This document shows positions 1,975 to 38,440 of a stretch of 52,248 nt of DNA, piece after piece (position 1 is the stretch's first letter; the number at the start of each line of letters is the position of its first letter). Position numbers and translations under genes: made by a program. Source of the DNA: an uncultured Acidobacteriia bacterium (GTDB lineage Bacteria; Acidobacteriota; Terriglobia; Bryobacterales; Bryobacteraceae); assembly GCA_903900705.1 (NCBI GenBank), contig CAIUOG010000038.1, forward strand, positions 1 through 52,248, read 5' to 3'. Under the pieces are notes generated by a model. The model saw only the letters and a list, made by a program, of their open reading frames with translations, did no database searches and was not told the origin of the DNA.

Positions 1975-2460
1975 TTAGTGTCCTGTGCGCCCGTTGATCA
2001 GATCCAGCACGTGCGGGACCAAATCTAAAATAGCATCGAGCGATTCCACCGCTCCGCGAGTCGACCCTGGTAGATTGACGATCAGCACGCCTCCCAGGAT
2101 TCCGGAAACTGCGCGCGAGAGTACGGCATTCCGCGTGGACGCCAGCCCTTTTGCCCGCATCAGTTCACCGAATCCGGGTAGTTCTTTTGTGATCACGTCC
2201 CGCGTGGCCTCCGGAGTGATGTCGCGCGGAGTGATACCGGTCCCGCCTGTGGTGACGATTACGCCTCGCCCCATGTCGGTGGCCAGTTGGCGCAACCGGG
2301 CCGAGATTTCGCGGCGCTCATCAGGCAGCACCAAATGTTTGGTGATGGAAAAACCGGCCTCGCGGAGCCGCGCTGCCACGGCCGGTCCGGATTTATCTTC
2401 GCGCGTACCGGCGAACGAACTGTCACTCACCGTGATTACGACCGCCGAAATGCCGCTCAA
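1975..2460 (-). CDS. mog: Molybdopterin adenylyltransferase (MogA/MoaB family)
   Basis: A 161-residue protein that adenylates molybdopterin with ATP before molybdenum insertion by MoeA, in the cytoplasm. The MPT-binding signature [14 protein letters not shown] is at residues 71-84, and the NLPGS motif is at 129-133. Length and layout fit the MoaB/MogA family. MoaB and MogA cannot be separated firmly from sequence alone, so the symbol is the generic one. Its start overlaps the moaC stop by 4 bases, and moaC in turn overlaps moeA, giving a translationally coupled three-gene cofactor operon. Confidence 0.9.
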
Positions 2461-2918
2461 CGGTGGAAATCTCCACTCTTTCCGCCCGTCTTTTCCAGCA
2501 GGTACAGATCCTGAATTTCGATCCGTTTATCGAGCGCCTTCGTCATGTCGTAGATCGTCAAAGCCGCCAGCGACGCCGCCGTCAAAGCCTCCATCTCCAC
2601 ACCGGTCTGAGCCGAGGTCGCCGCCGTCGCGATCACGCGGATGCCATCCTCTTCAATCGTCATCTCCACATCGGCAAACGAGAGGGGCAGGGAATGGCAC
2701 ATCGGGATCAGGTCGGCCGTTTTTTTCGCCGCCAGAATACCGGCGATTCGCGCGACCGCCAGAGGGTCTCCCTTCGGATTCTTCGGCAGCGCGTCGAGCA
2801 CTTCCCGCGACATCTTGACAAACACGTGAGCTTTCGCCGTCCGGCGCGTCTCCGCCTTGGCTCCCACGTCTACCATCCGGGCTTCCCCGGCCGAATCATA
2901 ATGCGACAGCCCGTTCAT
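2457..2918 (-). CDS. moaC: Cyclic pyranopterin monophosphate synthase MoaC
   Basis: A 153-residue enzyme that completes conversion of the MoaA product into cyclic pyranopterin monophosphate in molybdenum cofactor synthesis. Family hallmarks are visible: MVDVG at 15-19, [11 protein letters not shown] at 65-75, GVEMEAL at 106-112 and YDMTKALDK at 123-131, which carries the catalytic Asp and Lys. The length is normal for the family. It overlaps moeA upstream and mog downstream by 4 bases each. No moaA, moaD or moaE is in the window, so the first steps of the pathway must be encoded elsewhere. Confidence 0.95.
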
Positions 2919-4105
2919 TTCAGCAGGACTCCAATCAGTTCCCCGGCGGCATACTCCGCCTGGCCGGCTTCCGCCACCAGAAAGGCGTTGGCCCGTGACA
3001 GCGCCGGTACATCGCCCGACCCCTGCCAGTCTACAGGTGTGATTTCAAAACCACGCAAAACTGCCGGAAGAAAACGCGTGAGACCGGGCTTATGGCGGAA
3101 GGGCCTGCTCAGTCTGGCCAATGTCATCGGCAAGGGCGGTTCGGCCATGCCGGAGAGCAATTCAAGCGCCGCGCGAGCGAACAACTCAAACGTGACCATG
3201 GTGGAGCCCGGATTGCCAGGCAGCCCGAAAAAGAACTTTTCCCGCGCGACACCAAACACAAGCGGCGCGCCTGGCTGAATCAGCACGCGGTCAAAGAAAA
3301 AATCCGCGCCGAGTTCAGCCAATGCGGGTTCCACCACATCGAATTTGCCGGCGGAAACGCCGCCCGAAAGCAGGAGCAAATCCGCCTGCAGACCTTCTTC
3401 CATCAGCCGCCGCGTTCCGTCCAAAGTGTCCGGCGCGACCGGCAGAACCACCGGAATTCCACCCGCGCGCTCCACCTGCGCGGCGAGCGACCAGGCATTT
3501 GAATTCCGAATCTGGTGCGCGGCGGGTTGCTCACCGATGCCCACAATCTCGTCACCCGTCGCAAGAATCGCCACGCGTGGCTTCTCGTAAACCTGCACAT
3601 CCTGGTGACCGGTTGTCGCCAGCAGGGAAACCGTGGCGTAATCAATCCGCAGACCCCGCGCCGCCACCAGGTCACCGGCAAGGGCCTCACACCCGCGCCG
3701 CGCTATGTTTGCGCCACTCTCCGGAATCCGGTCCGTGGAAACGATTCCGTCCGCACCGCGAGTGCAGTGTTCCACCATCACGACTGCGTCGAACCCAGCC
3801 GGAACCGGAGCGCCGGTCATAATCTCGACGCATTCGCCGGGGCCTGCCAAACCCTCAAAAACCGTGCCCGCCCTGACTTCTCCCACCAGTCGCAATGAAC
3901 CCGGAGTCTCGCCGGATCGCACCGCGAACCCATCCCGCATAGACCTGTCAAACGGCGGATAGTCCCGGTCCGCCCGGATATCCTCCGCCAGCACACGTCC
4001 GGCAGCCAGGCGGAGCGGGACCGTCGCGACGCGGGGCGTGTTCAGACGCCGGCTCACCTCGCGCAAAACGGCGGATCGGGCATCGGCAAATGAAAGCGGC
4101 TGCAA
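2915..4105 (-). CDS. moeA: Molybdopterin molybdenumtransferase MoeA
   Basis: A 396-residue enzyme that inserts molybdate into adenylated molybdopterin. Sequence evidence includes [12 protein letters not shown] near residues 51-62, [10 protein letters not shown] near 95-104, GGVSAGKFD at 248-256 and GLPGNPGS at 294-301, all in the family order, followed by the C-terminal domain IV. The predicted start is a TTG at 4105 with a GAGGG Shine-Dalgarno only about one base away, which is unusually tight. No in-frame ATG lies close by. It is the first gene of the leftward cofactor operon and diverges from the cation antiporter across 43 bases that contain a perfect palindrome. Confidence 0.93.
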
Positions 4106-4148: not shown

Positions 4149-5306
4149 ATGGCTCATGTAATGGCCGCGATGCTCCTGGTCTTCGTCGTCGCCCGCCTGT
4201 TGCGGGAGGTGATGGAACGCCTGAAGCAACCGGGAATTGTGGGGGAGATCCTCGCCGGAGTGGTGATTGGCCCTCATGCTCTCGGCTGGGTGCAGTCGAG
4301 CGAAACGCTGACCACGCTTTCCGAACTCGGCGTGATGTTTCTGTTGTTTCGCATCGGTCTCGAAGTTCGGCCCTCACACCTGCTGAGTCTGGGCGCAACC
4401 GCCGTGTCGGTGGCCGCCTCCGGGGTGGTGGTGTCGTTTGGTATGGGCGTGGGCATTGCGCTGTTGTTCGGGCAGACGCTGCTCCAGGCGCTCTTCGTGG
4501 GCACGGCAATTTCCGCCACCAGTGTCGTCATCACGGCGGAGGTGCTGTCTTCACGCGGACTACTTCAGGAGCGGGCCAGCCAGACGATCCTCGCCGCCGC
4601 CGTGGTGGATGATGTCCTGGGGTTGGTTGTCCTCGCGCTTGTGACCAACGTTGCAAGGGGGAGCGTGAACTTCCTCGAAATCGCGTTTACCGCCCTGCTG
4701 GCCGTGGCCTTCGTGCTGCTCTTCGCCTTCTGGGGACACCGCGCCGTGCGCCATGTGGTGCCGCGCGTGGAGGCCTCCATGCGCACGGCGGAAGCGCAGT
4801 TCGCGATTTCGATCGCCCTGCTGTTCGCCCTGTCACTGCTGGCTGTTTACGCGGGTGTGGCCGCCATAATCGGTGCGTTCCTCGCGGGCATGGCGCTGTC
4901 GGAAACGGTGGACGAGCGCGTTCACATTATGACCGCGGGCGTCTCGGAGTTCCTGGTGCCATTCTTTCTCGCGGGAATCGGCATGAGTCTCGATCCCGCG
5001 GTTTTCCGCAACACCTCGACGGTACTGCTGGCCGGCGTTCTATTGGTGGCCGCGCTCCTTGCGAAGTTGCTCGGCTGCGGCCTGGGCGCCTGGCGACTCG
5101 GGCGGACAGACGCTCTGCGGGTGGGCGTGGGCATGGCGCCGCGCGGAGAAGTCGGCATGGTGGTCGCACAGATCGGGCGTGGTCTGGGCATCATGCCCGA
5201 ATCCATATTTGCCATCGTCGTCTTCCTCTCCATCGCGACCACCATGATTGCCCCGCCGCTGATCCGGCTCGCATTCCGGGGCGTGGAATCAGCGAAGCGT
5301 CCATAA
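4149..5306 (+). CDS. Monovalent cation:proton antiporter, CPA2 (KefB/NhaS3-like)
   Basis: A 385-residue inner-membrane protein with about 12 hydrophobic segments and the Na+/H+ exchanger fold. Visible family features are the IVGEILAGVVIGPHALG motif near residues 25-41, the TSVVITAEVLS stretch and the VVDDVLGLVVLAL helix that carries the paired acidic residues expected for ion exchange. A late APRGEVGMVVAQIG motif is also typical of CPA2 members. It lacks the cytoplasmic TrkA-N/RCK domain found in longer Kef proteins. A GAGGA Shine-Dalgarno precedes the ATG. The ion (Na+ or K+) cannot be told. Confidence 0.88.
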   Translation: MAHVMAAMLLVFVVARLLREVMERLKQPGIVGEILAGVVIGPHALGWVQSSETLTTLSELGVMFLLFRIGLEVRPSHLLSLGATAVSVAASGVVVSFGMGVGIALLFGQTLLQALFVGTAISATSVVITAEVLSSRGLLQERASQTILAAAVVDDVLGLVVLALVTNVARGSVNFLEIAFTALLAVAFVLLFAFWGHRAVRHVVPRVEASMRTAEAQFAISIALLFALSLLAVYAGVAAIIGAFLAGMALSETVDERVHIMTAGVSEFLVPFFLAGIGMSLDPAVFRNTSTVLLAGVLLVAALLAKLLGCGLGAWRLGRTDALRVGVGMAPRGEVGMVVAQIGRGLGIMPESIFAIVVFLSIATTMIAPPLIRLAFRGVESAKRP

Positions 5307-5312
5307 TCAGAC

Positions 5313-7739
5313 TTGGCGAGCAACCGCTCCAGGAAGACGATCAACGACTGGTTCGCCTCCCGCGGCTGGAAGCCGTTTCCTTTTCAAAAGCAGGTCTGGG
5401 AGGCTTATCGGAAAGGCGAATCCGGCCTGATTCACGCGGCCACCGGCACAGGGAAAACCTATGCTGCCTGGCTGGGTCCGCTCATGGAATGGATGGACGG
5501 GGATGGTGAAGCTTATCCGGACCTCCGCGTCCTCTGGATCACACCCCTGCGCGCCCTGGTCGCCGATACCGAAAAAGCACTTCGCGCGCCGCTCAAAGAT
5601 CTTGGTATCCCGTGGCGAATGGAATCGCGTACCGGTGACACCCGTCAGTCCGTCCGCGCGCGGCAGGAGAAACGCCTCCCCACGGCGCTGGTCACTACCC
5701 CCGAGAGCCTCGCGCTGCTTCTTGCCAGACCCGAAGCCCGGCAGCAGTTCCGGCGCCTGCAAATGGTGATCGTCGATGAGTGGCATGAATTGATGGGATC
5801 CAAGCGAGGTGTCCTCGCCGAACTCCTGCTCGCACGCCTCCGCCGCTGGAATCCGCTGGTCCGCACCTGGGGTCTCTCGGCAACGCTGGGCAATATGCAA
5901 ACCGCCGCCGCCACGCTGCTGGGGAATCGCGCGGAGGGCGCGCGAGTCGTGCGCGGACTGGTGCCCAAAACGGTCCGGATTGATTCGCTGCTCCCCGAGC
6001 AGATGGACCGTTTTCCCTGGGCCGGACACCTCGGGATCAACATGCTCCACCAGGTGACCGGCGCGATTGAAGAAGGCGCAACCACCCTGGTGTTTACCAA
6101 CACCCGATCGCAGTGCGAAATCTGGTATCAGGCCATCCTCGAAGCGCGGCCGGACTGGGCCGGCCTCATCGCTATCCACCACGGCTCGCTGGAGCGTAAA
6201 CTCCGCGACTGGGTGGAAGATGGCCTCCGCGCGGGTACGCTGCGGTGTGTTGTCTGTACTTCCAGCCTCGATCTCGGCGTGGATTTCTCTCCCGTGGATC
6301 GCGTCATCCAGATCGGCAGCCCGAAGGGCGTGGCGCGTCTGCTGCAGCGGGCCGGGCGCAGCGGGCACCGCCCGGGTGAGACCAGCCGTATCACCTGCGT
6401 GCCCACCCACGCCTTCGAACTGGTGGAAGTGGCCGCCTCGCGGGATGCCTGGAAAGCGGGCGCCATGGAAAGCCGGTTCCCGGTAGAGCGGCCCCTCGAT
6501 CTGCTCGCGCAGCACGCCGTCACCATGGCTCTGGGCGGCGGCTTTCAGGCGGACGACCTGCTGGCCGAAGTTCGCACCACTTACGCCTATCGTGACCTTT
6601 CGGGCATCGAATGGCAGTGGGTACTCGATTTCGTGACGCGGGGCGGGGAAGCACTCCGCGCTTATCCGGAATTTCAGCGCGTGGAAGTGACCGCGGATGG
6701 CGCTCATCAGGTGACCAATCGCCAGATCGCGCGCCGTCATCTGCTTTCCATCGGAACGATTGTGGCGGATGCCGCCATCGACGTCCGGTACGTAACGGGC
6801 GGCCGTCTGGGCAGTGTGGAAGAGAGTTTCATCTCGCGGCTTCGCCCCGGCGAGCATTTCTTTTTCGCCGGAAAGTCGCTCGAATTCATCCGGGTTCACA
6901 ACATGGTCGCGCAGGTGCGTAAAGCTCATGGCGAGGCGGGCAGCGTGCCCCGCTGGGATGGCGCTCGCATGGCGCTTTCGAGCGAACTGGCGGAGGCCGT
7001 GCGCACCCGTCTCGATCAGGCTCGCGCCGGAGTCTTCGAAGGCCCGGAGATGCGTTCCGTCCGCCCCGTGATGGATACGCAGGCGAAGATCTCCGCCATC
7101 CCCGGTCGCGAAGAACTGCTGATTGAACGAGTGGAAACGAAGGAGGGCCACCACCTGTTCTTCTACCCTTTCGAAGGCAGACTGGTGCACGAAGGTCTTG
7201 CGGCTCTCTTCGCGTGGCGAATCGCCAGGCTGCGCCCCATCACCTTTACCATGGCCATGAACGATTACGGCATTGAGCTTCTCTCCGCGGACCGCGCGCC
7301 TCTTGAAGCTTCCCTGGCCTCCGGACTGCTCAGCCCCGCCAATCTCGCCGAGGATATTCCCGCCAGTCTCAACGCCGCTGAAATGGCGCGCCGTCAGTTT
7401 CGGGAGATCGCACGCATCGCCGGCCTCACCTTCACCGGCTACCCCGGTCAGAACAAATCCGTAAAGCAGTTGCAGGCATCTTCGGGCCTCCTGTTCGACG
7501 TCTTTGTGAAGTACGACAGTGGCAACCTGCTCATCGAACAGGCGCATCGTGAAGTGCTGGAGCGCAATCTGGAACGCAGCCGCCTCGGCCAGACATTGGA
7601 CCGCCTTTCGCGCGGCGTGGTACGTCTGCTCGATATCGAACGCCCCTCACCGCTCTCGTTTCCGATTCTGGTGGATCGCTCCCGCCACCGCCTCAGTTCG
7701 GAGAAACTGGCCGACCGGATCCGGCGCATGTCCGCATGA
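5313..7739 (+). CDS. Ligase-associated DNA damage response DEXH-box helicase (Lhr-like)
   Basis: An 808-residue superfamily 2 helicase of the type that accompanies a LigD-like DNA ligase in many bacteria (TIGR04121). Motif I is ATGTGKT near residues 43-49, motif II is the unusual DEWH at 155-158, and a SAT motif follows near 190. The helicase C domain has QRAGRSGHRPG near 345-355. A long C-terminal Lhr-type region follows, with the winged-helix and DUF4175-like parts. The start is a TTG 7 bases after the antiporter stop; no earlier start is possible without overlapping that gene. The stop overlaps the pdeM start by 4 bases. It probably acts on damaged or recombining DNA. Confidence 0.92.
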   Translation: MASNRSRKTINDWFASRGWKPFPFQKQVWEAYRKGESGLIHAATGTGKTYAAWLGPLMEWMDGDGEAYPDLRVLWITPLRALVADTEKALRAPLKDLGIPWRMESRTGDTRQSVRARQEKRLPTALVTTPESLALLLARPEARQQFRRLQMVIVDEWHELMGSKRGVLAELLLARLRRWNPLVRTWGLSATLGNMQTAAATLLGNRAEGARVVRGLVPKTVRIDSLLPEQMDRFPWAGHLGINMLHQVTGAIEEGATTLVFTNTRSQCEIWYQAILEARPDWAGLIAIHHGSLERKLRDWVEDGLRAGTLRCVVCTSSLDLGVDFSPVDRVIQIGSPKGVARLLQRAGRSGHRPGETSRITCVPTHAFELVEVAASRDAWKAGAMESRFPVERPLDLLAQHAVTMALGGGFQADDLLAEVRTTYAYRDLSGIEWQWVLDFVTRGGEALRAYPEFQRVEVTADGAHQVTNRQIARRHLLSIGTIVADAAIDVRYVTGGRLGSVEESFISRLRPGEHFFFAGKSLEFIRVHNMVAQVRKAHGEAGSVPRWDGARMALSSELAEAVRTRLDQARAGVFEGPEMRSVRPVMDTQAKISAIPGREELLIERVETKEGHHLFFYPFEGRLVHEGLAALFAWRIARLRPITFTMAMNDYGIELLSADRAPLEASLASGLLSPANLAEDIPASLNAAEMARRQFREIARIAGLTFTGYPGQNKSVKQLQASSGLLFDVFVKYDSGNLLIEQAHREVLERNLERSRLGQTLDRLSRGVVRLLDIERPSPLSFPILVDRSRHRLSSEKLADRIRRMSA

Positions 7740-8386
7740 GAGTCGAGGTCGCAGGCACGGAACTCGAACTGATGGCCGAACGCGCGGCTTACTGGCCGGA
7801 GCGTGCGACTCTCTTCGTGGCCGACACCCATTGGGGCAAGGCCGCCGCTTTCCGCGCGAACCTGATTCCCGTGCCGGGCGGTACCACCGAAAGCGATCTC
7901 GCCCGCCTCACCAGCGCCATTCTCCGTACCAGTCCGCGCCGCATCGTGTTGCTCGGCGACGCACTGCATTCGCGCGACGGCCGTTCGGAAAAAACCTTCC
8001 AGTCCCTCGCCGCATGGCGCGCCCGGCACGCGGAAATCGAGATTCTTCTCGTGCGCGGCAACCATGACCGCAAAGCCGGCGATCCTCCGGAGGGACTTGG
8101 CATCCACTGCGTGGATGCGCCCGTAATCGAAGCGCCCTTCGTCTTCCAGCACCATCCCTCGGAGACGCCCGCCGGCTACGCCCTGGCCGGTCACATTCAT
8201 CCCGCCGTCCGTTTGCGCGGCCGCGGACTGCAGCGCGCCACGCTCCCCTGCTTCCACTTCGCCCCCGGCGTGGCCACCCTTCCGGCCTTCGGTTCGTTCT
8301 GCGGTTCCGCCCTGATTCAGCCCGGTCCGGCGGACCGCGTCTATGCCATTGCGGATGATGAAATAGTGAATATATGGCGACGGTAG
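7736..8386 (+). CDS. pdeM: Ligase-associated DNA damage response endonuclease PdeM
   Basis: A 216-residue calcineurin-like metallophosphoesterase. Metal ligands are in the expected order: DTH at 30-32, GDALH at 74-78, GNHD at 108-111 and GHIHP at 152-156. It belongs to the nuclease family linked with Lhr-like helicases and LigD-like ligases (TIGR04123). Start and helicase stop overlap (ATGA), so the two are translationally coupled. The usual partners, an SNM1-like exonuclease and an ATP-dependent ligase, are not in the window. The 3' end overlaps hpnE by 13 bases. Confidence 0.92.
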   Translation: MRVEVAGTELELMAERAAYWPERATLFVADTHWGKAAAFRANLIPVPGGTTESDLARLTSAILRTSPRRIVLLGDALHSRDGRSEKTFQSLAAWRARHAEIEILLVRGNHDRKAGDPPEGLGIHCVDAPVIEAPFVFQHHPSETPAGYALAGHIHPAVRLRGRGLQRATLPCFHFAPGVATLPAFGSFCGSALIQPGPADRVYAIADDEIVNIWRR

Positions 8387-22112: not shown

Positions 22113-23252
22113 ATGCGTTCCGGCGTCCTTCCGCTTCTCATTTTCTTTGCCATTGTTCAGAAGCAGGCCCCGGCGCAGAACCCCCGCCCCATTACGGATG
22201 CCATGGTGCGGGAGGTCCACAAATCCGCCATCCTGATCGACACGCACAACGATGTGACCAGCCGTACGGTCGATGGTTTCGATATCGGCAAGGCGGGTTC
22301 GGACAGCCATACAGACATCAAACGGCTGCGCGAGGGCGGCGTCGGGGCCGTTTTCTTCGCGGCGTACGTATCGTCGGACTACGCCAAAAGCAAAACCTCC
22401 GCGCACCGCGCACTGCAGATGATTGATACGGTGCGGACAGATATAGTGGCGCGTTATCCCAATGTCTTCACGTTCGCCACCAATGCGGCGGAGATCGAAG
22501 CCGCGCATCGCCAGGGAAAAATCGCGGCTCTGATCGGCATTGAGGGTGGCCACGCCATTGAAGACGATCCGCGGCTTCTGCGCGATTTTTACGCTCTGGG
22601 TGTGCGATATATGACGCTGACCCACACCAACACCAACAGTTGGGCGGATTCTTCCGGCGACGGGGCGGACCGCTCCGTGAAGCATCACAACGGGCTGACG
22701 CCGCTGGGCCGGCAGATTGTGGAAGAGATGAATCGGCTCGGCATGATGGTCGATATCTCGCATGTCGCGGATAAGACGTTTTATGACGTGATCGATGCGT
22801 CGAAAGCGCCCGTTATCGCATCCCATTCCTCGTGCAGGGCACTGTCAAATGTGCCGCGGAATATGACGGATGCCATGATTACGGCCCTTGCGAAGAAAGG
22901 CGGTGTGGTGCACATCAATTTCAACTGCGAATTCCTGTCCCAGAAAACCGCCGACGCGCAGCGAGCCCGTCCGCTGAAAGAGCGCGAGAAGAATATTCTG
23001 CCGGCAACCCTGGCGGACGTGGTGGCGCACATCGATCATGTGGTGAAACTGGTGGGGGTGAACGCGGTGGGAATCGGGAGCGATTTCGACGGTGTGCATT
23101 GCACGCCCGCTGGCCTTGATGATGTGTCGAAGTTCCCGAATCTGACCCGCGCTTTGCTTGAACGCGGCTATTCGCCGGACGACATCCGGAAGATGTATGG
23201 CGGCAACACCCTGCGGGTGATGCGCGCCGTGGAACGTGCGAGTGCCAACTAG
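22113..23252 (+). CDS. Exported membrane (renal-type) dipeptidase, peptidase M19
   Basis: A 379-residue zinc dipeptidase with an N-terminal hydrophobic signal (SGVLPLLIFFAIVQ). Metal-site motifs are present: IDTHNDV near residues 43-49, IGIEGGHAIEDD near 145-156, VDISHVADKT, SHSSCRAL and GIGSDFDGV near 320-328. Family members cleave dipeptides, and mammalian renal dipeptidase is known to cleave cysteinylglycine-type substrates. The gene overlaps egtB by 17 bases, so it is likely the first gene of the ergothioneine/importer operon. A role in supplying cysteine is inference. Confidence 0.92.
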   Translation: MRSGVLPLLIFFAIVQKQAPAQNPRPITDAMVREVHKSAILIDTHNDVTSRTVDGFDIGKAGSDSHTDIKRLREGGVGAVFFAAYVSSDYAKSKTSAHRALQMIDTVRTDIVARYPNVFTFATNAAEIEAAHRQGKIAALIGIEGGHAIEDDPRLLRDFYALGVRYMTLTHTNTNSWADSSGDGADRSVKHHNGLTPLGRQIVEEMNRLGMMVDISHVADKTFYDVIDASKAPVIASHSSCRALSNVPRNMTDAMITALAKKGGVVHINFNCEFLSQKTADAQRARPLKEREKNILPATLADVVAHIDHVVKLVGVNAVGIGSDFDGVHCTPAGLDDVSKFPNLTRALLERGYSPDDIRKMYGGNTLRVMRAVERASAN

Positions 23253-24369
23253 CTCGCTGCGCGCCGAGTTGTTTGCCGCGCGGGAGCAGACCGATCTGCT
23301 CTTTCGAATGATTGCTCCGGCCGCTCTGTACGGGCGCCCTGTGGCGGAACGTCATCGGATCGTTTTTTATCTGGGGCACCTTGAGGCCTTTGACTGGAAT
23401 CTGCTGGCCCGGCGGTCACTGGGAGAAAGCAGCTTTCACGAGACTTTTGACCGGCTGTTCGAGAGAGGCATTGATCCCCCGCCGGGCGAGGAGCCCGTGG
23501 ATGCCGCGTCAGACTGGCCCACGCGGGAAGAGATCGCGGATTACAACCTCCGCACCAGACACTGGATCGACAAGCATCTGGAAGAGTGTGATCCCTGGGT
23601 TCTGCGGATGGCGATTGAGCACCGCCTGATGCACGCCGAGACGCTGGCCTATGTGCTGCACCATCTGCCGTATGCGGAGAAATCAGGGCCCGCGCCGGTC
23701 TTCGCGCCGTCTGAAGCGCCTGCGAATCCGCTGGAACCGGTTTCGGCGGGCAGCGCGCGGCTGGGCCAGACATCGGGCGAGTTTGGCTGGGATAACGAGT
23801 TTGCGGCTCATTCGAAAGCCGTTCCGGAATTCGCCATCACGCGGTATAAAATCACCAACGCCGAGTATCTGGAATTTGTGAAAGAGGGCGGGGAAGCGCC
23901 CCTTTTCTGGCGGCGCGAGGGCGAGCAGTGGTTCTGGAACGGGATGTTCGGCAGCGTGCCTTTACCGCTCGATTGGCCGGTCTGGACAACCTGGAATCAG
24001 GCGTCCGCGTTCGCCCGCTGGCGCGGTTTGCGGTTGCCCTCGGAAGCGCAGTGGCACCGCGCAGCGGAGGCGCGGGGCCCCGGAAATTATGGCTTTCGGC
24101 ATTGGGATCCGGTCCGTGTGCAGGCGTTTGAGTTCACCGGGAATGGCTGGGAATGGACGCGCGATGTCTTCGCGCCGTTTGAGGGATTTGCGGCACACGG
24201 CAGTTATCCCGGTTATTCGGCCGATTTTTTCGACGGCAGTCACTATGTGATGAAAGGCGCATCTCCCCGAACCGCGCCGCTGCTGGCGCGCACCAGTTTC
24301 AGAAACTGGTTTCGACCGGAATACCCCTATATGTATGCGGGATTCCACCTTGTCGAGGAACGAGCATGA
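23236..24369 (+). CDS. egtB: Ergothioneine biosynthesis sulfoxide synthase EgtB-like (DinB + FGE-sulfatase domains)
   Basis: A 377-residue nonheme iron enzyme. The N-terminal DinB-like domain carries the iron ligands: H48 in GHLEAFDWN, and the HX3HXE motif at 129-135 (HRLMHAE). The C-terminal formylglycine-generating-enzyme fold contains ITRYKITNAEYLEF, RLPSEAQWHRAA, GNGWEWTRDVFAPF and RNWFRPEYPYMYAGF. EgtB couples hercynine with a thiol donor (gamma-glutamylcysteine or cysteine, by subtype) using oxygen. The GTG at 23236 overlaps the dipeptidase; a GTG at 23242 is also possible. egtD follows after 7 bases. No egtA, egtC or egtE is present, which favours a cysteine-using subtype and an unlinked C-S lyase. 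Confidence 0.88.
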   Translation: MRVPTSSLRAELFAAREQTDLLFRMIAPAALYGRPVAERHRIVFYLGHLEAFDWNLLARRSLGESSFHETFDRLFERGIDPPPGEEPVDAASDWPTREEIADYNLRTRHWIDKHLEECDPWVLRMAIEHRLMHAETLAYVLHHLPYAEKSGPAPVFAPSEAPANPLEPVSAGSARLGQTSGEFGWDNEFAAHSKAVPEFAITRYKITNAEYLEFVKEGGEAPLFWRREGEQWFWNGMFGSVPLPLDWPVWTTWNQASAFARWRGLRLPSEAQWHRAAEARGPGNYGFRHWDPVRVQAFEFTGNGWEWTRDVFAPFEGFAAHGSYPGYSADFFDGSHYVMKGASPRTAPLLARTSFRNWFRPEYPYMYAGFHLVEERA

Positions 24370-24376
24370 GTCCGCT

Positions 24377-25354
24377 ATGATCGCAAGCATCCCCTTACAG
24401 CCCCCCGTACAGACCGCAGCCGGTACGTTCGCCGCCGATGTCCTCGAAGGTCTCACGCGGCCAGGCCAGAAAACCCTGCCGTCGTCGTGGCTTTACGATG
24501 ACGTGGGATCCGCGCTTTTCGAGGTGATTACGCTCCTTCCGGAGTACGGCCTCACCAGAGCTGACGCCGCGTTGTTGCGCGGCGCGGCGGGCGCGGTGGC
24601 GGAGATGGCGGGGCAACCAGCGCGAATTGTGGAATTCGGCAGCGGCAGCGGCTCGAAAACGCGCTGCATTCTCGAAGCCGCGCTGGCCTCGCGCCCGGTT
24701 GAGTATGCGCCGATTGATATCTCGCGGGCGGCTCTCGAAAACTGTGCCTCCAATCTGCGCGGCCTGCCCGGTCTGACGGTGCGCCCGGTCGAAGCCTGCT
24801 ATCTCTCTGGCCTGGCCGAGACGCTGGCGGGGCGCGGGACGGACGATCGAACCCTGCTGCTTTTCCTCGGCAGCACGATCGGCAACTTCAGCCCCGACCA
24901 AGCGGCCACGTTCCTTCGCTCGGCCCGCCAACAGATGCGGCCCGGTGACTCGTTGCTTCTGGGCGCTGACCTGGTGAAGCCCCGCGAGCAACTACTCGCC
25001 GCATATGACGACCCGCTCGGTGTCACCGCGGCGTTCAATCTCAACCTGCTGGCGCGCATCAATCGCGAGTTGGGCGGCGAGTTTCAACCGGGGCGATTCG
25101 CCCATGAGGCCCGGTTTGACCAGCAACATTCGCGGATTGAAATGCACCTGCGCGCCCGGGTGGCCCAGAAGGTCTGGATTGAGGGACTGCATCGCATTGT
25201 TTCTTTCGAGGCGGGTGAGACCATCTGGACGGAGTCGTCCTACAAGTTCCTGACATCCGACATTGCGGAGATCGGCGCCGAAGCAGGCTGGACCATTGCG
25301 CAACAATGGGTGGACCATGAGTGGGGCTTTGCGGAGACGCTGTTTTCCGCATGA
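24377..25354 (+). CDS. egtD: L-histidine N-alpha-methyltransferase EgtD
   Basis: A 325-residue SAM-dependent methyltransferase that trimethylates histidine to hercynine, the first step of ergothioneine synthesis. Diagnostic features are the opening LYDDVGSALFEVITLLPEYG near residues 39-58, the SAM motif VEFGSGSGSKTR at 85-96, PIDISRAAL, and LFLGSTIGNFSP near 156-167. The second aromatic of the usual PEYY motif is replaced by Gly. The start is the ATG at 24377; a longer frame would begin inside egtB. Its stop overlaps the start of the ABC ATPase gene (ATGA), coupling synthesis and transport genes. Confidence 0.92.
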   Translation: MIASIPLQPPVQTAAGTFAADVLEGLTRPGQKTLPSSWLYDDVGSALFEVITLLPEYGLTRADAALLRGAAGAVAEMAGQPARIVEFGSGSGSKTRCILEAALASRPVEYAPIDISRAALENCASNLRGLPGLTVRPVEACYLSGLAETLAGRGTDDRTLLLFLGSTIGNFSPDQAATFLRSARQQMRPGDSLLLGADLVKPREQLLAAYDDPLGVTAAFNLNLLARINRELGGEFQPGRFAHEARFDQQHSRIEMHLRARVAQKVWIEGLHRIVSFEAGETIWTESSYKFLTSDIAEIGAEAGWTIAQQWVDHEWGFAETLFSA

Positions 25355-26085
25355 GCCTGATTGAATTTCACCGCGTTGGTTTTCAGATCGGCCCGAAGGT
25401 CATTCTGCGGGAACTGAATCTTACCGTGGAGGCGGGCGAGACGCTGGTCCTTTTGGGACGCAGCGGGTCCGGCAAGACCACCGCGCTGCGATTGATCAAT
25501 GGCATGTTGTTTCCCACCAGCGGGCAGGTCGTGGTGTCTGAGCGCCCCACCACCGAATGGGATGCGGTGGCGTTGAAGAGGTCCATCGGGTATGTGATTC
25601 AGGAGAGCGGCCTTTTTCCGCATTTCACGGTCGGGAGAAACGTGGGTCTGCAACCCGAACTGGCCGGCTGGCCGAAGGAGAAGATCGGTGAGCGCGTCCG
25701 CACCCTGCTGCGCACCGTGTCGCTGGACCCCGATGAGTTTCTGGCGCGTTATCCCCGTCAGCTGTCCGGTGGGCAGCGGCAGAGGGTTGGCGTGGCACGC
25801 GCACTGGCGGCAGACCCCGGAATCCTGCTTTTCGACGAACCTTTCGGCGCGCTGGATCCCGTGACCAGACTGGATTTGCAGCGTGAGTTTCCGCGCCTGG
25901 TGACCGAACTTGGCAAGACCGCCGTGTTCGTCACCCATGACGTCCGCGAAGCGATGAAACTCGGCACGCGTATCGCGCTCCTCGAAGCCGGCTGTCTGGT
26001 ATTTGCGGGAACACCCGGCGAGTTTCAAATGTGCGGGCATCCGGAAGCGCGAGCCTTTCAGGAGGTGTTTCGGGATGCCGGATAA
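25351..26085 (+). CDS. ABC importer ATPase, OpuC/ProV/EgtV type
   Basis: A 244-residue ATPase. Walker A is GRSGSGKTT near residues 32-40, the signature is LSGGQRQRVGVARALA near 135-150, Walker B is ILLFDEP, and the switch is VTHDVREAMKLGTR. It is shorter than glycine-betaine ATPases with CBS domains and has none, so osmotic gating through CBS is not expected. It overlaps egtD by 4 bases and the permease gene by 11. The closest functional group is the glycine betaine/choline/carnitine and ergothioneine importer family; the operon context favours ergothioneine or its betaine precursor hercynine. Confidence 0.9.
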   Translation: MSLIEFHRVGFQIGPKVILRELNLTVEAGETLVLLGRSGSGKTTALRLINGMLFPTSGQVVVSERPTTEWDAVALKRSIGYVIQESGLFPHFTVGRNVGLQPELAGWPKEKIGERVRTLLRTVSLDPDEFLARYPRQLSGGQRQRVGVARALAADPGILLFDEPFGALDPVTRLDLQREFPRLVTELGKTAVFVTHDVREAMKLGTRIALLEAGCLVFAGTPGEFQMCGHPEARAFQEVFRDAG

Positions 26086-26719
26086 CGTGGTCGACTATGA
26101 CGTGCTGCGGGACATTCTTGAAGAAGGGCTTCCGTTGCTCGGAGAACATCTGGCGCTGGTGATCACGGCTATGGTTATAGCGGCGGCCATTGCAATTCCG
26201 CTGGGAATTCTGGTGGCGCACACCCGACGCTGGCGAGCCCTTGCCACCGGCATCGCCGGCATTGGCCAGACCATCCCCAGCCTCGCTCTGTTTGGATTCC
26301 TGATTCCGCTTCCGCTGATTGGCGGCATTGGCGCGCACACCGCAATCGTCGCTCTTGTTCTCTATGCCGTGTTGCCGATTCTGCGCAACACCATCACGGG
26401 GATTCAGGGAGTGGACCCCGCCGTTCGCGATTCCGCCGTGGCTATGGGGATGACGCGGGCGCAGATGCTGCGCCTGGTGGAATTGCCGCTCGCGGCCCCG
26501 GTGATTCTCTCCGGCCTGCGGATTGCGACCGTTGCGACGATCGGCACCGCGACCATCGCGGCCGCGATCGGAGCCGGAGGACTTGGCGTTTTCATCTTCC
26601 GGGGGATCGCGTCGGTGGACAAGTGGCAGATTCTCGCGGGAGCTATTCCGTCGGCCCTGCTGGCGTTGTGCGCCGACGCCGGCATCGGCTGGCTGGAGAA
26701 GCGATGCGCCTCATCGTAG
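26075..26719 (+). CDS. ABC importer permease, OpuCB/YehW/EgtU type
   Basis: A 214-residue permease with five or six hydrophobic segments and the BPD_transp_1 fold. GIGQTIPSLALFGFLIP near residues 66-82 and LPILRNTITGIQGVDPAVRDSA near 101-122 (the EAA-like loop that contacts the ATPase) are typical of osmoprotectant permeases. The ATG at 26075 has a GGAGG Shine-Dalgarno 9-10 bases upstream and overlaps the ATPase gene by 11 bases. The next gene, encoding the binding protein, overlaps by 16 bases. In characterised EgtU proteins permease and binding domain are fused; here they are separate. Confidence 0.9.
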   Translation: MPDNVVDYDVLRDILEEGLPLLGEHLALVITAMVIAAAIAIPLGILVAHTRRWRALATGIAGIGQTIPSLALFGFLIPLPLIGGIGAHTAIVALVLYAVLPILRNTITGIQGVDPAVRDSAVAMGMTRAQMLRLVELPLAAPVILSGLRIATVATIGTATIAAAIGAGGLGVFIFRGIASVDKWQILAGAIPSALLALCADAGIGWLEKRCASS

Positions 26720-27552
26720 TGTTTTCGCTGCTCCTGACGGTCGCGTGTTCTCGTGAGCCGCGAATCCGGGTGGGATCCAAAAACTTCAGCGAGCAACTGA
26801 TCCTGGGAGAGATTGTCGCGCAGCATCTGGAAAAGCGGCTGGGCGGGCACATCAGCCGGAAGTTCGATCTGGGCGGCACGCTGCTGGCGCATCAGGCGCT
26901 CGACTCGGGAGCCATTGATCTCTATCCGGAGTACACGGGAACGGCGCTGACGGGAGTGTTAAAGAGACCACCGCTTACCGACCCTCGCGAGGTCCTGGCG
27001 CAGGTGCGAAAGGGCTATGCACAGTGGCATCTGCTGTGGCTCGATCCTCTGGGCTTTGAGAATACCTTTGCCATGACCATACGAAAGGAGGACTCTGCCG
27101 CGATTAACCTGTCCGAGGCCGCGCAAACGCGGGCCTGGCGTCTGGGAGCGGGTTACGAGTTCGCGCACCGGCCGGACGGCCTGCCCGGACTGCTGGGCAC
27201 GTATGGCTTGAAAATGCGGGGTTCGCCGAAAACCATGGACCTCGGGCTGCTCTATCAGGCGCTCTCAGGAAAGCAGGTGGATATGGTCGCGGGGAACAGT
27301 ACAGATGGTCTGCTCTCCGTGCTGCCACTGAGAGTCCTCGCCGATGACCGTCACTACTTTCCGCCCTATGAATGCGCGCTGGTGGTGCGGGAGGATCTGG
27401 AGCAGCGGTTTCCGGGAGCCACCGCCGCGTTGCGGGAACTTTCCGGCCGGATCGACAGCGACACCATGCGCCGGCTGAACTACGAACTCGACGGCAGGCA
27501 CCGTCCGGTTCGCGAAATTGCGCGAGGATTCCTGCGTGCGGCGGCGCTGTAA
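26704..27552 (+). CDS. ABC importer substrate-binding lipoprotein, OpuAC/OsmF/EgtU type
   Basis: A 282-residue binding protein with a lipobox (LLTVAC, acylated Cys near residue 15). The mature domain begins IRVGSKNFSEQLILGEIVAQ, the hallmark of the OsmF/OpuBC/EgtU group. DLYPEYTGTALTG near 79-91 is also typical, as is GNSTDGLLS near 198-206. Ligands of this group carry a trimethylammonium group (betaine, choline, carnitine, ergothioneine). Being downstream of egtB and egtD, it may bind ergothioneine or hercynine; this is inference. The stop directly abuts the stop of the convergent TPR gene. Confidence 0.88.
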   Translation: MRLIVVFSLLLTVACSREPRIRVGSKNFSEQLILGEIVAQHLEKRLGGHISRKFDLGGTLLAHQALDSGAIDLYPEYTGTALTGVLKRPPLTDPREVLAQVRKGYAQWHLLWLDPLGFENTFAMTIRKEDSAAINLSEAAQTRAWRLGAGYEFAHRPDGLPGLLGTYGLKMRGSPKTMDLGLLYQALSGKQVDMVAGNSTDGLLSVLPLRVLADDRHYFPPYECALVVREDLEQRFPGATAALRELSGRIDSDTMRRLNYELDGRHRPVREIARGFLRAAAL

Positions 27553-34145: not shown

Positions 34146-35351
34146 GTGCAGATTCCATCTTCCATCCTGATCCTTAGTATTCTCAGCCTGACACTCGCGG
34201 GCTGCAACCGGACCGCCCCGGAAGCGGCTCCAGCCGCACCGCCACTGACCGCTGTTAGGGTCACCCAGGCAACCGCGTCAGACGTGCCGCTTGAAATCAC
34301 CGCTATCGGCAACGTGGAGGCGATCTCCACGGTCGATGTGAAAGCGCGCGTCACAGCACCGGTGCTCCACGTTCATTTCGCCGAAGGGCAGGACGTGAAA
34401 CAGGGCGAACTGTTGTTCGAGCTCGATCCGGAATCGCTGAACCGGCAGATTGCCGAGATGGATGCCAATATCGCCAAAGACATTGCGCTTGAGCGACAAT
34501 CGGATGCCAACATCGCCCGCGACGTGGCCACGCTGAAGAATCTGGACGCGGTCGCGCTGCGCAGCGCGAATCTCCTGAAAGAAGGAATTCTTTCGCGTGA
34601 ACTGGCGGAACAGGCATCCTCCGGCGCGGAAGCGGCACGAGCCTCGGTGGAATCGGATCGCGCCGCGCTCGAAAGCGCCAAAGCCTCCGAGAAGGCCGAC
34701 CGCGCCAAACTGCAGCAGATCCGGCTGCAACTCGACTACACCAAAGTCTACGCCCCCATCTCCGGGCGCGCCGGTTCTATTGCGATCAAACAGGGCAGCC
34801 TCGCCAAAGAGAACGACAACACGCTGGTGACGCTGCTGCAAACCGCGCCTGTGTACGTGTCCTTTCCGGTGCCCGAAAATCTGCTGCCCAACATTCGCCA
34901 GTTCAACGCTGCGCACCCCATCAACATCACGGCCATCATGGCGGATCAGCAAACCAGTACCGGCACGCTGCAGTTTATCGATAACAGCGTGGATTCCACC
35001 ACCGGAACAATTCGTCTGAAGGGCACTTTCTCCAATGGCGATCGCAAGCTCTGGCCCGGCCAGTTCGTCAACGTGCGGGCGCGTCTGAGCGTGGAAAACA
35101 ACCGCATCCTGATCTCGTCGCAGGTGATTCAGTCTGGTCCTGAGGGCAAGTTCGTCTGGATCTATAACCCCGGTGACAGCACGGTCGCCATGCGCCCGGT
35201 CACTGTTCTGCGAAATTACACGCCGCCCGGCGAAGGAGAAAAGGCCGTCATCGGAGCCGGCCTGGTGGCCGGTGAGAACGTGATCTCCGAGGGCCAGTTA
35301 CGCCTCACGCCCCAAGCGAAAGTTCGCCTTCTCAGCCAGGGAGCGCAGTAA
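34146..35351 (+). CDS. RND efflux periplasmic adaptor (MexA/AcrA family) lipoprotein
   Basis: A 401-residue membrane fusion protein. A lipobox (SLTLAGC) ends the signal near residue 19. A barrel-sandwich hybrid half reads VDVKARVTAPVLHVHFAEGQ and a coiled-coil hairpin of about 100 residues follows. The second lipoyl half is LDYTKVYAPISGRAGSIAIK, then come the beta-barrel (GTLQFIDNSVDSTTGTIRLK) and the membrane-proximal domain. It links the inner-membrane pump to an outer-membrane channel. The start is a GTG at 34146 without an obvious Shine-Dalgarno. It overlaps the pump gene by one base. Confidence 0.93.
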   Translation: MQIPSSILILSILSLTLAGCNRTAPEAAPAAPPLTAVRVTQATASDVPLEITAIGNVEAISTVDVKARVTAPVLHVHFAEGQDVKQGELLFELDPESLNRQIAEMDANIAKDIALERQSDANIARDVATLKNLDAVALRSANLLKEGILSRELAEQASSGAEAARASVESDRAALESAKASEKADRAKLQQIRLQLDYTKVYAPISGRAGSIAIKQGSLAKENDNTLVTLLQTAPVYVSFPVPENLLPNIRQFNAAHPINITAIMADQQTSTGTLQFIDNSVDSTTGTIRLKGTFSNGDRKLWPGQFVNVRARLSVENNRILISSQVIQSGPEGKFVWIYNPGDSTVAMRPVTVLRNYTPPGEGEKAVIGAGLVAGENVISEGQLRLTPQAKVRLLSQGAQ

Positions 35352-38300
35352 TGGCCGTTACCGATCTCTTCATCCGCCGCGCCGTGACAACCACCCTGGT
35401 CATGTCCGGCATCCTGGGCTTCGGGTTGCTGAGCTATTTCACCTTGCCCGTCAGTGACCTGCCTTCGGTGGAATATCCCACCATCCAGGTCTCGGCCGCG
35501 CTGCCTGGCGCAAACCCGGACATCATGGCTTCCTCGGTTGCCACACCCCTCGAGAAATCCTTCTCGAATATTGAGGGAATTGAGAGCATGTCGTCATCGA
35601 GTACGCTCGGGACGACGAACATTACTCTCCAGTTCGGTCTGAATCGCTCCATCGACGCGGCGGCGCAGGATGTGCAGGCGGCTATCTCGCGGGCGAGCGG
35701 CAACCTTCCCACGAACATGCCCGCGCCGCCGTCGTATCAGAAGGTCAATCCGGCATCGCGCGCGGTTGTGTACCTCGGCATCCGCTCGGACACCATGACC
35801 ATGGCTGCTCTCGATGAATACGCGGAGACGCTGATTGCCCGCCGGATCTCGATGGTGAGCGGCGTCGCGCAGGTGCAGGTGTTCGGGGCGCAGAAGTATG
35901 CCGTGCGCGTACAGGCGGACCCGAATCGTCTGGCTTCCCGCCAGGTGGGTCTCGAAGATGTCCGCACCGCGCTGGGTCAGCAGAATGTCAACGTGCCCGC
36001 CGGTTCGCTTTATGGCTTCACCAAGGCGTACACCGTTCAATCGAACAGCCAGTTGAACACCGCCGCGCAGTTCCGGCCCATGATCATCTCCTATCGCAAC
36101 GGCAATCCGGTTCGGCTCGAGGACATCGCGAACGTGAAGGACAGCGTCACCACGGACAAAACCGCCTTCTGGGTGAATGGCAATCCGGCGATGATCGTGG
36201 CGGTGCAGAAGCAGCCCGGCACCAATACCGTGGAAGTGGTGGATGGCGTGAAGAAGTTGCTCCCCAGCCTTACCTCCAACATGCCGGCCGGAATTCAGCT
36301 GCATGTGGAATTCGACGCTTCTCAGAACATCCGGCAATCCATTCAGGACGTGAAATTCACGCTGCTGCTGACCATCGGGCTGGTGATTCTGGTGATCTTC
36401 GTCTTCCTGCGGAACTTCTCCGCGACTGTGATTCCGAGCCTTGCCGTGCCGCTCTCCCTGCTGGGAACCTTTGCGGCGATGAAGGTCCTCGGGTTCACCA
36501 TCGACACGCTTTCCATGATGGCCATGACGCTTTCGGTCGGCTTTGTGGTGGACGACGCCATCGTCATGCTGGAGAACATCGTGCGCCACATGGAGATGGG
36601 GAAAAGCCGGATGGAGGCGGCCTATGAGGGCGCGCGCGAGGTGGGGTTCACCATTATTTCGATGACGATTTCGCTGACCGCCGTCTTTATTCCCGTGCTG
36701 TTTCTCGAAGGTATTATCGGCCGGCTGCTGCGCGAATTCTCGATTACCATCGCCGTCGCCGTTCTGATTTCCGGGTTTATTTCGCTCTCCCTCACGCCAA
36801 TGCTGTGCAGCCGCTTTCTGCACCACGAAGAGAATCACGGCAGGCTCTTCCGGGCCTCCGAGGCCTTTTTCGATGGCATGAATCACGTCTATCGCCGGAC
36901 CCTGCAGTTCACGCTTCGCTTCCGCCTCGCGACTCTGCTCGGAACCCTCGCGCTGACCGCCTTCACGGTCTGGATGTTTATCTGGATGCCGAAGAGCTTC
37001 CTGCCCTCCGTGGATACCGGCATGGTTTCGGGCAACACGGAAGCCGCGCAGGATACCTCGTTTGAGCAGATGGTGAAGCTCCAGACGGCGGCCATGCGCG
37101 TGGTGCAGAAGAACAAATGGGTGACGCAGTTCGGCACCGGCACTGGCGGCTTCTCCGGCCAGAACCAGGGCTTTATGTTCATGCACTTTTCCGATGATCC
37201 GAACCGGCCGCATGCCACGAAGATCCTCGAAGAACTGCAGCAGGGCTTCGCGCAGATTCCGGGCCTTTCCGTTTATCTGAAGCTGCCGCCGCTGCTCACG
37301 CTGGGCCAGAATGAGTCGCGGTATCAGTATTCAGTGGCTTTGCAGGACGCCGATACGGCGGTGCTCTACAAGTGGGCGCCTCGCCTCGAAGCGAAACTTC
37401 GCACCATGCCGGAGATTGCGGATGTTTACAGCGACCTGCAACTCAGCAGCCCGCGCGTGAACGTCGATATCGACCGCGACCGCGCGCTCGCGCTGGGCAT
37501 TACGCCGGAGCAGATCGCCAATACGCTTTACGACGCCTACGGCAACCGCCGAGTCTCCACCATTACGGCCGCAGCCAATGACTATGACGTGATTCTGGAA
37601 GTGCTGCCGCAGTATCAGCGGGACCCGGAAGGGCTCGCCAGGCTCTACATCCGGTCGACCAATAACAAGCTCGTTCCACTATCCAGCGTCACCCGACTGA
37701 TCCAGGGCGTGGCGCCGTTGTCCGTCAATCACATCGGCCAGTTGCCCGCCGTCAACTTCGAATTCAACACGAAGCCAGGTATTTCGCTCAGCCAGGCGAC
37801 GGCGCAGATTGACGAAGCCGCGCACCAACTCGGCCTGCCGGACACCACCAGTTTCACCTATCAGGGCACGGCTCAGGTCTTCCAGAAGTCCCTGGGCGGC
37901 CTGACGATTCTGCTGCTGATCGCCGTGCTGGTGATTTATCTGGTGCTGGGAATTCTGTATGAGAGTTTTATTCACCCCATCACAATTCTTTCCGGCCTGC
38001 CCGCCGCCGGACTGGGTGCGCTGCTCACTTTGTTGATTTTCCATGACGATCTGAATCTTTATTCGTTCGTCGGGATCATTTTGCTGATCGGAATTGTCAA
38101 AAAGAATGCCATCATGATGGTGGATTTTGCGATTATGGCGAAGAGGGAAGGGAAGTCCGCCGAAGAGGCGATTTTCGAAGGCTGTATGCAGCGCTTCCGT
38201 CCGATTATGATGACCACCATGTGCGCGCTTCTTGGAACACTGCCCATCGCGCTCGGCTACGGCGCCGGCGGCGAAGCCCGTCAGCCGCTGGGAATCGCGG

Positions 38301-38440
38301 TGGTGGGCGGTCTGGTCGTTTCGCAGTTGCTCACGCTCTACATTACGCCGGTGATCTACCTGTACCTGGAGAGACTGATTCCGGCCGCGGCGGGAAACAA
38401 ATCCCGGAGTCCTCTCGTACTGTCTAAAGAACCCTCATGA
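35351..38440 (+). CDS. RND multidrug efflux permease (AcrB/MexB, HAE1 family)
   Basis: A 1029-residue proton-driven pump with 12 predicted membrane segments and two large periplasmic loops. Recognisable parts are the N-terminal RRAVTTTLVMSGILGFGLLS, the central LSVGFVVDDAIVMLENIVRH helix carrying the proton-relay Asp pair, and the second-half VGIILLIGIVKKNAIMMVDF. Length is full for the family. It is translationally coupled to the adaptor upstream and overlaps the TIGR03435 gene by 4 bases. No outer-membrane TolC-like gene is in the window, so the third component must be encoded elsewhere. Substrates unknown. Confidence 0.95.
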   Translation: MAVTDLFIRRAVTTTLVMSGILGFGLLSYFTLPVSDLPSVEYPTIQVSAALPGANPDIMASSVATPLEKSFSNIEGIESMSSSSTLGTTNITLQFGLNRSIDAAAQDVQAAISRASGNLPTNMPAPPSYQKVNPASRAVVYLGIRSDTMTMAALDEYAETLIARRISMVSGVAQVQVFGAQKYAVRVQADPNRLASRQVGLEDVRTALGQQNVNVPAGSLYGFTKAYTVQSNSQLNTAAQFRPMIISYRNGNPVRLEDIANVKDSVTTDKTAFWVNGNPAMIVAVQKQPGTNTVEVVDGVKKLLPSLTSNMPAGIQLHVEFDASQNIRQSIQDVKFTLLLTIGLVILVIFVFLRNFSATVIPSLAVPLSLLGTFAAMKVLGFTIDTLSMMAMTLSVGFVVDDAIVMLENIVRHMEMGKSRMEAAYEGAREVGFTIISMTISLTAVFIPVLFLEGIIGRLLREFSITIAVAVLISGFISLSLTPMLCSRFLHHEENHGRLFRASEAFFDGMNHVYRRTLQFTLRFRLATLLGTLALTAFTVWMFIWMPKSFLPSVDTGMVSGNTEAAQDTSFEQMVKLQTAAMRVVQKNKWVTQFGTGTGGFSGQNQGFMFMHFSDDPNRPHATKILEELQQGFAQIPGLSVYLKLPPLLTLGQNESRYQYSVALQDADTAVLYKWAPRLEAKLRTMPEIADVYSDLQLSSPRVNVDIDRDRALALGITPEQIANTLYDAYGNRRVSTITAAANDYDVILEVLPQYQRDPEGLARLYIRSTNNKLVPLSSVTRLIQGVAPLSVNHIGQLPAVNFEFNTKPGISLSQATAQIDEAAHQLGLPDTTSFTYQGTAQVFQKSLGGLTILLLIAVLVIYLVLGILYESFIHPITILSGLPAAGLGALLTLLIFHDDLNLYSFVGIILLIGIVKKNAIMMVDFAIMAKREGKSAEEAIFEGCMQRFRPIMMTTMCALLGTLPIALGYGAGGEARQPLGIAVVGGLVVSQLLTLYITPVIYLYLERLIPAAAGNKSRSPLVLSKEPS

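Follow-up and report, generated by a model that had tools for sequence, protein, structure and literature searches.

The question raised by this locus is whether a bacterium that makes the antioxidant ergothioneine also takes it up. The window, i.e. the whole analysed stretch of 52,248 nucleotides of contig CAIUOG010000038.1 (assembly GCA_903900705.1) from an uncultured member of the Bryobacteraceae (Acidobacteriota), carries at 22113-27552 a row of six collinear genes on the forward strand, all head to tail, in which ergothioneine synthesis genes are followed by a three-gene importer. The genes are as follows.

22113-23252, + strand: M19 dipeptidase (Peptidase_M19, Pfam PF01244, 373 bits) with a signal-peptide-like start; its role in the operon is unsure
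23236-24369, + strand: EgtB-like non-haem iron sulfoxide synthase, GTG start, 377 amino acids (FGE-sulfatase PF03781, 110 bits)
24377-25354, + strand: EgtD, histidine N-alpha-methyltransferase, ATG start (TIGR03438, 322.4 bits; Methyltransf_33)
25351-26085, + strand: ATP-binding cassette (ABC) ATPase of ProV/OpuCA type, best start ATG at 25351 (ABC_tran; TIGR01186 proV as top NCBIfam match)
26075-26719, + strand: permease subunit of choline/betaine type, ATG start (BPD_transp_1, 79 bits)
26704-27552, + strand: substrate-binding lipoprotein (SBP) of OpuCC/ProX/EgtU type, ATG start, lipobox LTVAC (OpuAC)

All six proteins (6/6) scored above a Pfam cut-off. The M19 and egtB-like genes overlap by 17 bases, egtD and the ATPase gene share a 4-base ATGA overlap, and the ATPase/permease and permease/SBP junctions overlap by 11 and 16 bases; the sole gap, of 7 bases (24370-24376), lies between the egtB-like gene and egtD. 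This order, with the M19 overlap and the single gap, had been described in an earlier note on this DNA and was confirmed by reading of the sequence. The six genes probably form one transcript, which may begin further upstream because ROK and FGGY kinase genes precede them on the same strand with gaps of 5 and 48 bases. No promoter-like site was found in a promoter scan, and the 8 terminator-like sites found are no excess over shuffled sequence, which gave 7.4.

EgtD trimethylates histidine to hercynine at the cost of three S-adenosylmethionine (SAM) molecules, EgtB-type iron enzymes couple hercynine to a cysteine donor to give a sulfoxide, and the pyridoxal phosphate (PLP) lyase EgtE cleaves this to ergothioneine. 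On sequence and neighbourhood grounds, we assign a probability of roughly 0.6 to the reading that the importer carries ergothioneine and/or hercynine, ergothioneine first, and that the operon would combine synthesis with recapture; the cell would then probably make ergothioneine and take it back up. EgtD would make hercynine and the EgtB-like enzyme would add the sulfur; EgtE is not among the six operon genes, and a lyase encoded outside the operon would complete ergothioneine. The lipoprotein would capture the trimethylammonium betaine outside the membrane by a Tyr/Phe cage together with Lys26, Thr80, Arg156 and Glu152, and the permease and ATPase would import the bound ergothioneine or hercynine at the expense of ATP. 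The likely use would be recovery of ergothioneine leaked or made by neighbours, saving three SAM and one sulfur per molecule. For a costly, leaking betaine recapture is plausible: engineered C. glutamicum lacking the betaine importer gene betP made marginally more ergothioneine, and its authors took this as a sign that BetP may import the compound (PMC12689799).

Recurrence of the egtBD-importer pairing

A bait search was made with the window SBP and the best 80 of 374 candidate loci were taken. EgtB and/or EgtD lay close to the importer in 15 of these 80 loci, in three gene orders. The collinear order EgtB-EgtD-ATPase-permease-SBP was present in L002, L003 (at a contig end, with just the terminal piece of EgtD), L004, L006, L008, L009 and L013; in L018 and L020 the importer preceded EgtB-EgtD; and the two halves were divergent in L052, L055, L058, L066, L078 and L081. 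The remaining 65 loci had no EgtB or EgtD in the stretch covered, a number of them ending at contig ends. Terriglobus roseus (L068), a culturable relative, has its EgtD at another place in the genome.

The frequency of the pairing was then taken from one even sample of 396 Acidobacteriota genomes, which are not independent, with presence set against the window proteins at E <= 1e-20 for EgtD and E <= 1e-15 for the SBP; the genome searches scored few candidates each, and second copies may be missed. EgtD was present in 158 genomes, the SBP in 142 and both in 117, and in at least 16 of these 117, the window's own genome included, the two were linked (same contig, few kb), over nine family codes. 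Random placement within 6 kb would give about 0.3-0.5 linked genomes. As a control, catalase and EgtD were never close in 45 of the 46 genomes with both, the nearest listed pair being about 83 kb apart (the EgtD position of the remaining genome, G346, is unlisted).

Presence of the two proteins was associated as well. The table of both, SBP only, EgtD only and neither was 117, 25, 41 and 213, with an odds ratio of 24; EgtD occurred in 117/142 genomes with the SBP and in 41/254 without it. The catalase control gave odds ratios of 3.3 with EgtD and 3.1 with the SBP, and the SBP-EgtD odds ratio stayed at 43 in catalase-positive and 20 in catalase-negative genomes. Within the best-sampled single family (43 genomes) the same table was 31/0/6/6 (p 1.5e-4). 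A similar association was obtained from one even sample of 194 Cyanobacteria, also not independent, in which EgtD was present in 80 and the SBP in 53 genomes (table 49/4/31/110, odds ratio 43; EgtD in 49/53 genomes with the SBP against 31/141 without). Linkage there was looser: in 9 of the 49 genomes with both, EgtD and SBP lay within about 8 kb, converging, with at least one other open reading frame between them.

On a tree of 112 SBPs (41 linked, 52 unlinked, 19 short-flank rows uncounted) the label linked or unlinked needs at least 10 changes, or perhaps 9, as L019 counts as linked by a weak FGE-domain match only; the count is biased, L082-L096 and L102-L110 having been included for being linked. 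The pairing has therefore been gained or lost repeatedly. The linkage of egtBD and importer has re-formed in several gene orders, and this supports a functional joining of the two. That the neighbourhood arose by chance, or by drifting gene order among functionally unrelated genes, as the small linkage counts and the many relatives without linkage might suggest, is highly improbable against 0.3-0.5 linked genomes expected and at least 16 found, an odds ratio of 24 against 3.3 for catalase, and the several orders. Chance adjacency was rejected on the random-placement expectation, the presence odds ratios and the repeated tree changes. The earlier note had held that a lack of conserved linkage in relatives would speak against its proposal; across Acidobacteriota the linkage recurs in several orders, and more loosely in Cyanobacteria.

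Three importer architectures were found beside egtBD: separate genes, a permease-SBP fusion (e.g. L082-L086) and an SBP-permease fusion (e.g. L089-L093). The arrangement is therefore a recurrent theme and not peculiar to the window operon. The synthesis and import halves are each known, and their joining in one operon appears to be the new part; no report of an egtBD-importer operon was found in the literature, as judged by titles and abstract beginnings, the H. pylori Cell paper excluded. The earlier note is to be corrected on the separate permease and binding protein, which is one architecture of three, and most relatives keep egtBD and importer apart. In L084 a GCS2-family glutamate-cysteine ligase (4800-6119, below the EgtA cut-off) lies between egtD and the ATPase gene with egtB divergent beside them, making it a fuller ergothioneine cluster with an importer. 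For the importer of L096, which likewise lies next to egtBD, the best match among solved proteins is pneumococcal EgtUC.

Two further observations concern close kin of the window SBP. One, 73% identical (L005:5528-6331), has no permease, ATPase or egtBD matches in 14 kb. Others occur in L010 and L021, whose records bear the titles Nevskia soli and Nitrospira, and point either to transfer or to misbinned contigs.

Synthesis enzymes and the M19 dipeptidase

The methyltransferase passed the curated cut-off of TIGR03438 (322.4 against 290.9 bits, residues 18-319), and residues 12-319 align with the solved EgtD 4pim, its best PDB match (E 4e-60). The EgtB-like protein lies under every NCBIfam cut-off, with 187.6/400 for OvoA-N, 170.4/420 for SenA and 156.9/360 for EgtB (TIGR03440), and the name was therefore kept at EgtB-like. 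Its best PDB match is Sulfoxide synthase EgtB-IV (8vih, E 9e-48), and its nearest solved kin are EgtB-IV and OvoA; at 377 amino acids it is shorter than EgtB-IV (468). The protein has the sulfoxide synthase fold by its C-terminal FGE-sulfatase domain and by aligned iron-binding stretches: GHLEAF is matched by GHSAAF of 8vih and EHRLMHAE by EHQRIHFE, the GH histidine and the following HxxxHxE being the iron-ligand stretches of this fold. The substrates of EgtB-IV are hercynine and cysteine, and by analogy we infer that the EgtB-like enzyme would use the same pair. The term EgtB-IV did not occur in the papers listed by a literature search for it (12 of 15). Searches of the window's genome gave a single EgtD and a single EgtB-like protein, plus one further, weak match.

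The M19 dipeptidase was considered as a general part of the theme and rejected, being kept only in the closest relatives: it adjoins EgtB in L002 and L004, is 3.4 kb off in L006, and had no match at L008, L009 and L013. Separately, a gamma-glutamyltranspeptidase family member was observed about 1-7 kb from the SBP in 12 Nostoc-group loci (L028, L033, L034, L035, L037, L044, L046, L057, L060, L063, L064 and L075; Pfam-confirmed for L034 only). This enzyme, like the M19 dipeptidase of the window, may belong to glutathione breakdown as a possible cysteine source.

Substrate of the importer

The ATPase reached 241.8 of 326.6 bits with TIGR01186 proV and the permease best matched choline permease TIGR03416, each being the best NCBIfam match and below its cut-off. 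The SBP passed PF04069 (quaternary-amine binding) with 174.6 bits against a gathering score of 21.2. Its pocket consists of Lys26, Phe28, Tyr77, Thr80, Phe118, Asn120, Phe122, Glu152, Arg156, Asn198 and Tyr222, and it is 36% identical to H. pylori EgtU (8dp6, 8dp7) and 30-31% to pneumococcal EgtUC. The carboxylate/imidazole contacts of EgtU (Lys242, Thr296, Arg379, Glu375) are present as Lys26, Thr80, Arg156 and Glu152; such contacts occur in nearly all typed SBPs of any pocket type and are non-discriminating. Two of the four EgtU cage residues are kept, Asn339 as Asn120 and Tyr443 as Tyr222. Searches of the window's genome turned up neither a BCCT carrier nor a second binding protein of the OpuAC type.

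The known systems differ from the window in several respects. In S. pneumoniae, EgtU consists of the EgtUA ATPase and EgtUBC, a fused permease and substrate-binding domain, whereas permease and SBP of the window are separate overlapping genes. H. pylori EgtU 8dp7, bound to EGT (ergothioneine) per its entry title, has chain numbering 287-553, which fits a fused permease and binding domain, again unlike the window. OpuBC/OpuCC and AfProX are betaine/choline binders, from which the window SBP differs by its Phe122/Asn198 pocket and its ergothioneine-gene neighbours. Pneumococcal EgtU was presented as a means by which bacteria can use ergothioneine without having to produce it (PMC9732360), and the words egtD and egtB are absent from the main text of that paper; unlike that setting, the window genome encodes EgtD and an EgtB-like enzyme.

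Several findings weigh against ergothioneine as the substrate. The pneumococcal EgtU markers, Gly244 and the Phe293/Tyr337 switch (PMC9732360), are replaced by Phe28, Tyr77 and Phe118 (Phe293 and Tyr337 placed via the L096-EgtUC alignment, Gly244 from the KxG/KNF motif only), and the other two cage residues are altered, Tyr341 to Phe122 and Tyr419 to Asn198. Among solved proteins, the SBP is closest in sequence to engineered acetylcholine/nicotine sensors and to binders of betaine or choline, and pneumococcal EgtUC is more distant. EgtD and importer were not seen close together in 101 of the 117 genomes with both, and in G289, of the same family as the window, egtBD and importer are on different contigs. 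The SBP was found without EgtD at threshold in 25/142 genomes, 4 of them with the Asn198-type pocket of the window, and in L125 an aconitase gene (5699-8383, by Pfam) directly follows an Asp198-type importer, L124 and L126 being alike by eye, the three being genomes of one family without EgtD. The co-occurrence p-values are moreover optimistic because the genomes share ancestry.

Judged by its marker residues, the SBP falls outside the pneumococcal type of EgtU. The EgtUC mutant G244F still bound ergothioneine with a Ka of 2e5 per molar (PMC9732360, Table 1), and according to the same paper certain H. pylori transporters from the wider cluster help to take up ergothioneine, at a lower affinity; the missing markers are therefore compatible with ergothioneine. 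The earlier proposal that the importer joins synthesis to uptake holds in so far as an OpuC/ProX/EgtU-type importer is joined to ergothioneine genes, and is weakened by the absent markers, the altered cage and a pocket that is identical in linked and unlinked close relatives.

A rival view is that the importer takes up one of the common betaines (glycine betaine, choline, carnitine or proline betaine) as osmoprotectant or as a methyl source replenishing the SAM of EgtD, the link to egtBD reflecting methyl supply or shared stress regulation. It is in accordance with the nearest solved proteins (the engineered sensors, OpuBC/OpuCC and AfProX), with Phe28 and Tyr77 in the places of EgtU Gly244 and Phe293 as in betaine-binding AfProX, and with the textbook expense of three SAM per hercynine. 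The view is nevertheless unlikely, as it leaves the co-presence of importer and EgtD and the linkage re-formed in several orders unexplained. Neighbourhoods were inspected for 14 of the 25 EgtD-less SBP genomes, and no betaine/choline catabolism genes were recognised by eye near these 14 SBPs or found in 8 Pfam-scanned neighbours, most neighbours being unscanned; among scanned neighbours outside the named families, 3/5 were uninformative on substrate (PEP-CTERM, DUF2911, aconitase). From the linkage we infer ergothioneine as the more fitting ligand.

A variant is that the importer serves primarily for hercynine, to which EgtB would add sulfur, uptake feeding the second half of the pathway. EgtB and EgtD are adjacent, hercynine differs only by the missing sulfur, and a cage short of one aromatic residue could hold a ligand in a different pose. 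Hercynine as first substrate is still improbable: EgtD would be superfluous wherever hercynine is plentiful, and pneumococcal EgtUC binds hercynine thousands-fold more weakly than ergothioneine (PMC9732360, Table 1).

The 142 SBP genomes were also typed by pocket. Genomes with/without EgtD numbered 67/4 for Phe122/Asn198, 15/7 for Phe122/Asp198, 22/10 for Tyr122/Tyr198 and 13/4 for others, with one row per genome: a second copy in G289 (L210) and a second fragment in G140 (L242) were dropped, further second SBP matches of G010 and G317 were not included, and fragments lacking position 122 or 198 (G140, G279, G093) were counted under others. The Asn198 type was associated with EgtD more strongly than the rest (p 2.8e-4; 37/4 against 49/21, p 0.018, with the best-sampled family left out). 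Linked genomes were 8/71 of the Asn198 type, 8/32 of the Tyr/Tyr type, 0/22 of the Asp198 type and 0/17 of others. Importers of two or more pocket types are thus found next to egtBD, and Asn198 by itself does not establish the substrate. As a mark of ergothioneine linkage the Asn198 pocket was rejected, since the same pocket is found linked and unlinked and eight linked genomes are Tyr/Tyr.

The Asp198-type sister importers (L124-L128 and others), with no close egtBD in any of 22 genomes and EgtD in 15/22, perhaps carry another substrate. One of them, G148 (L120), counted as EgtD-less, has a divergent EgtD-family methyltransferase (2156-3115) directly before the ATPase gene, with 76.6 bits for Methyltransf_33 (Pfam) and 57 of 290.9 for TIGR03438, and the divergence of this protein keeps it under the threshold used. 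In L120 the SBP is followed by a multinuclear iron enzyme of MbnB/TglH/ChrH type (5628-6434), and an iron enzyme of this type follows the Asn198-type SBP in L123 (1164-2018). In loci of the L120/L123 type, another methylated, modified amino acid is perhaps made and imported.

Genes travelling with egtBD and the importer

Between SBP and EgtB, L018 (8862-10265) and L020 (6654-8009) carry a flavin adenine dinucleotide (FAD) disulfide oxidoreductase. This flavoprotein (PRK06370 type in L018 and L111) passes NCBIfam NF004992 (762 against 629) and carries a CxxxxC motif and an HPTxxE stretch, presumably disulfide-reductase motifs. Its kin (E <= 1e-90, with 4 candidates scored per genome) were present in 54/396 Acidobacteriota, 53 of the 54 with EgtD and 51 with the SBP; at 500 bits or more, 32/33 had EgtD, or 14/15 outside the best-sampled family. 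In L111 (3889-5268; its EgtB passes the cut-off, 585 against 360), L112 (4124-5486) and L113 (3451-4740, 44% identity only) such kin stand next to egtB or egtD, and the stretch covered shows no importer; they lie upstream of an importer without egtBD in L067 (43% identity) and in L097 (7454-8827, with two short reading frames separating the two). The genome of the window has just a 39%-identity relative, elsewhere in the genome. Its company makes the flavoprotein a candidate for an ergothioneine-disulfide reductase. In mammals, thioredoxin reductase is reported to reduce ergothioneine disulfide (PMC8868364), and no bacterial ergothioneine-disulfide reductase was found in the literature as far as search listings give it.

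A DinB-family protein was observed directly after the SBP in eight Acidobacteriaceae loci (L022, L023, L024, L027, L038, L043, L065 and L101). Both that were scanned, L038 (1812-2450) and L101, passed Pfam DinB_2, and L101 also passed the mycothiol-S-transferase model. According to a 2024 review, DinB-type proteins include thiol S-transferases and the ergothioneine S-transferase is still sought (PMC10950700); the DinB-family protein beside the importer is possibly this enzyme.

It may tentatively be suggested, as a somewhat doubtful extension, that Acidobacteriota run a full ergothioneine economy whose gene sets are reshuffled around egtBD and would comprise synthesis, importers of a subfamily with the Phe/Asn cage, the flavoprotein as ergothioneine-disulfide reductase and, in Acidobacteriaceae, a DinB-family S-transferase, Cyanobacteria having synthesis and import. 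If true, ergothioneine would be a managed redox thiol here, as glutathione or mycothiol is elsewhere. Recurrent synthesis-plus-import operons in soil bacteria and in cyanobacteria would mean that organisms able to make ergothioneine recapture it as well; they would also provide a marker of a new clade of importers, together with candidates for a bacterial ergothioneine-disulfide reductase and an ergothioneine S-transferase.

Elsewhere in the window, an ordinary HlyD-type fusion protein and an AcrB-type resistance-nodulation-division (RND) efflux pump are encoded at 34146-38437.

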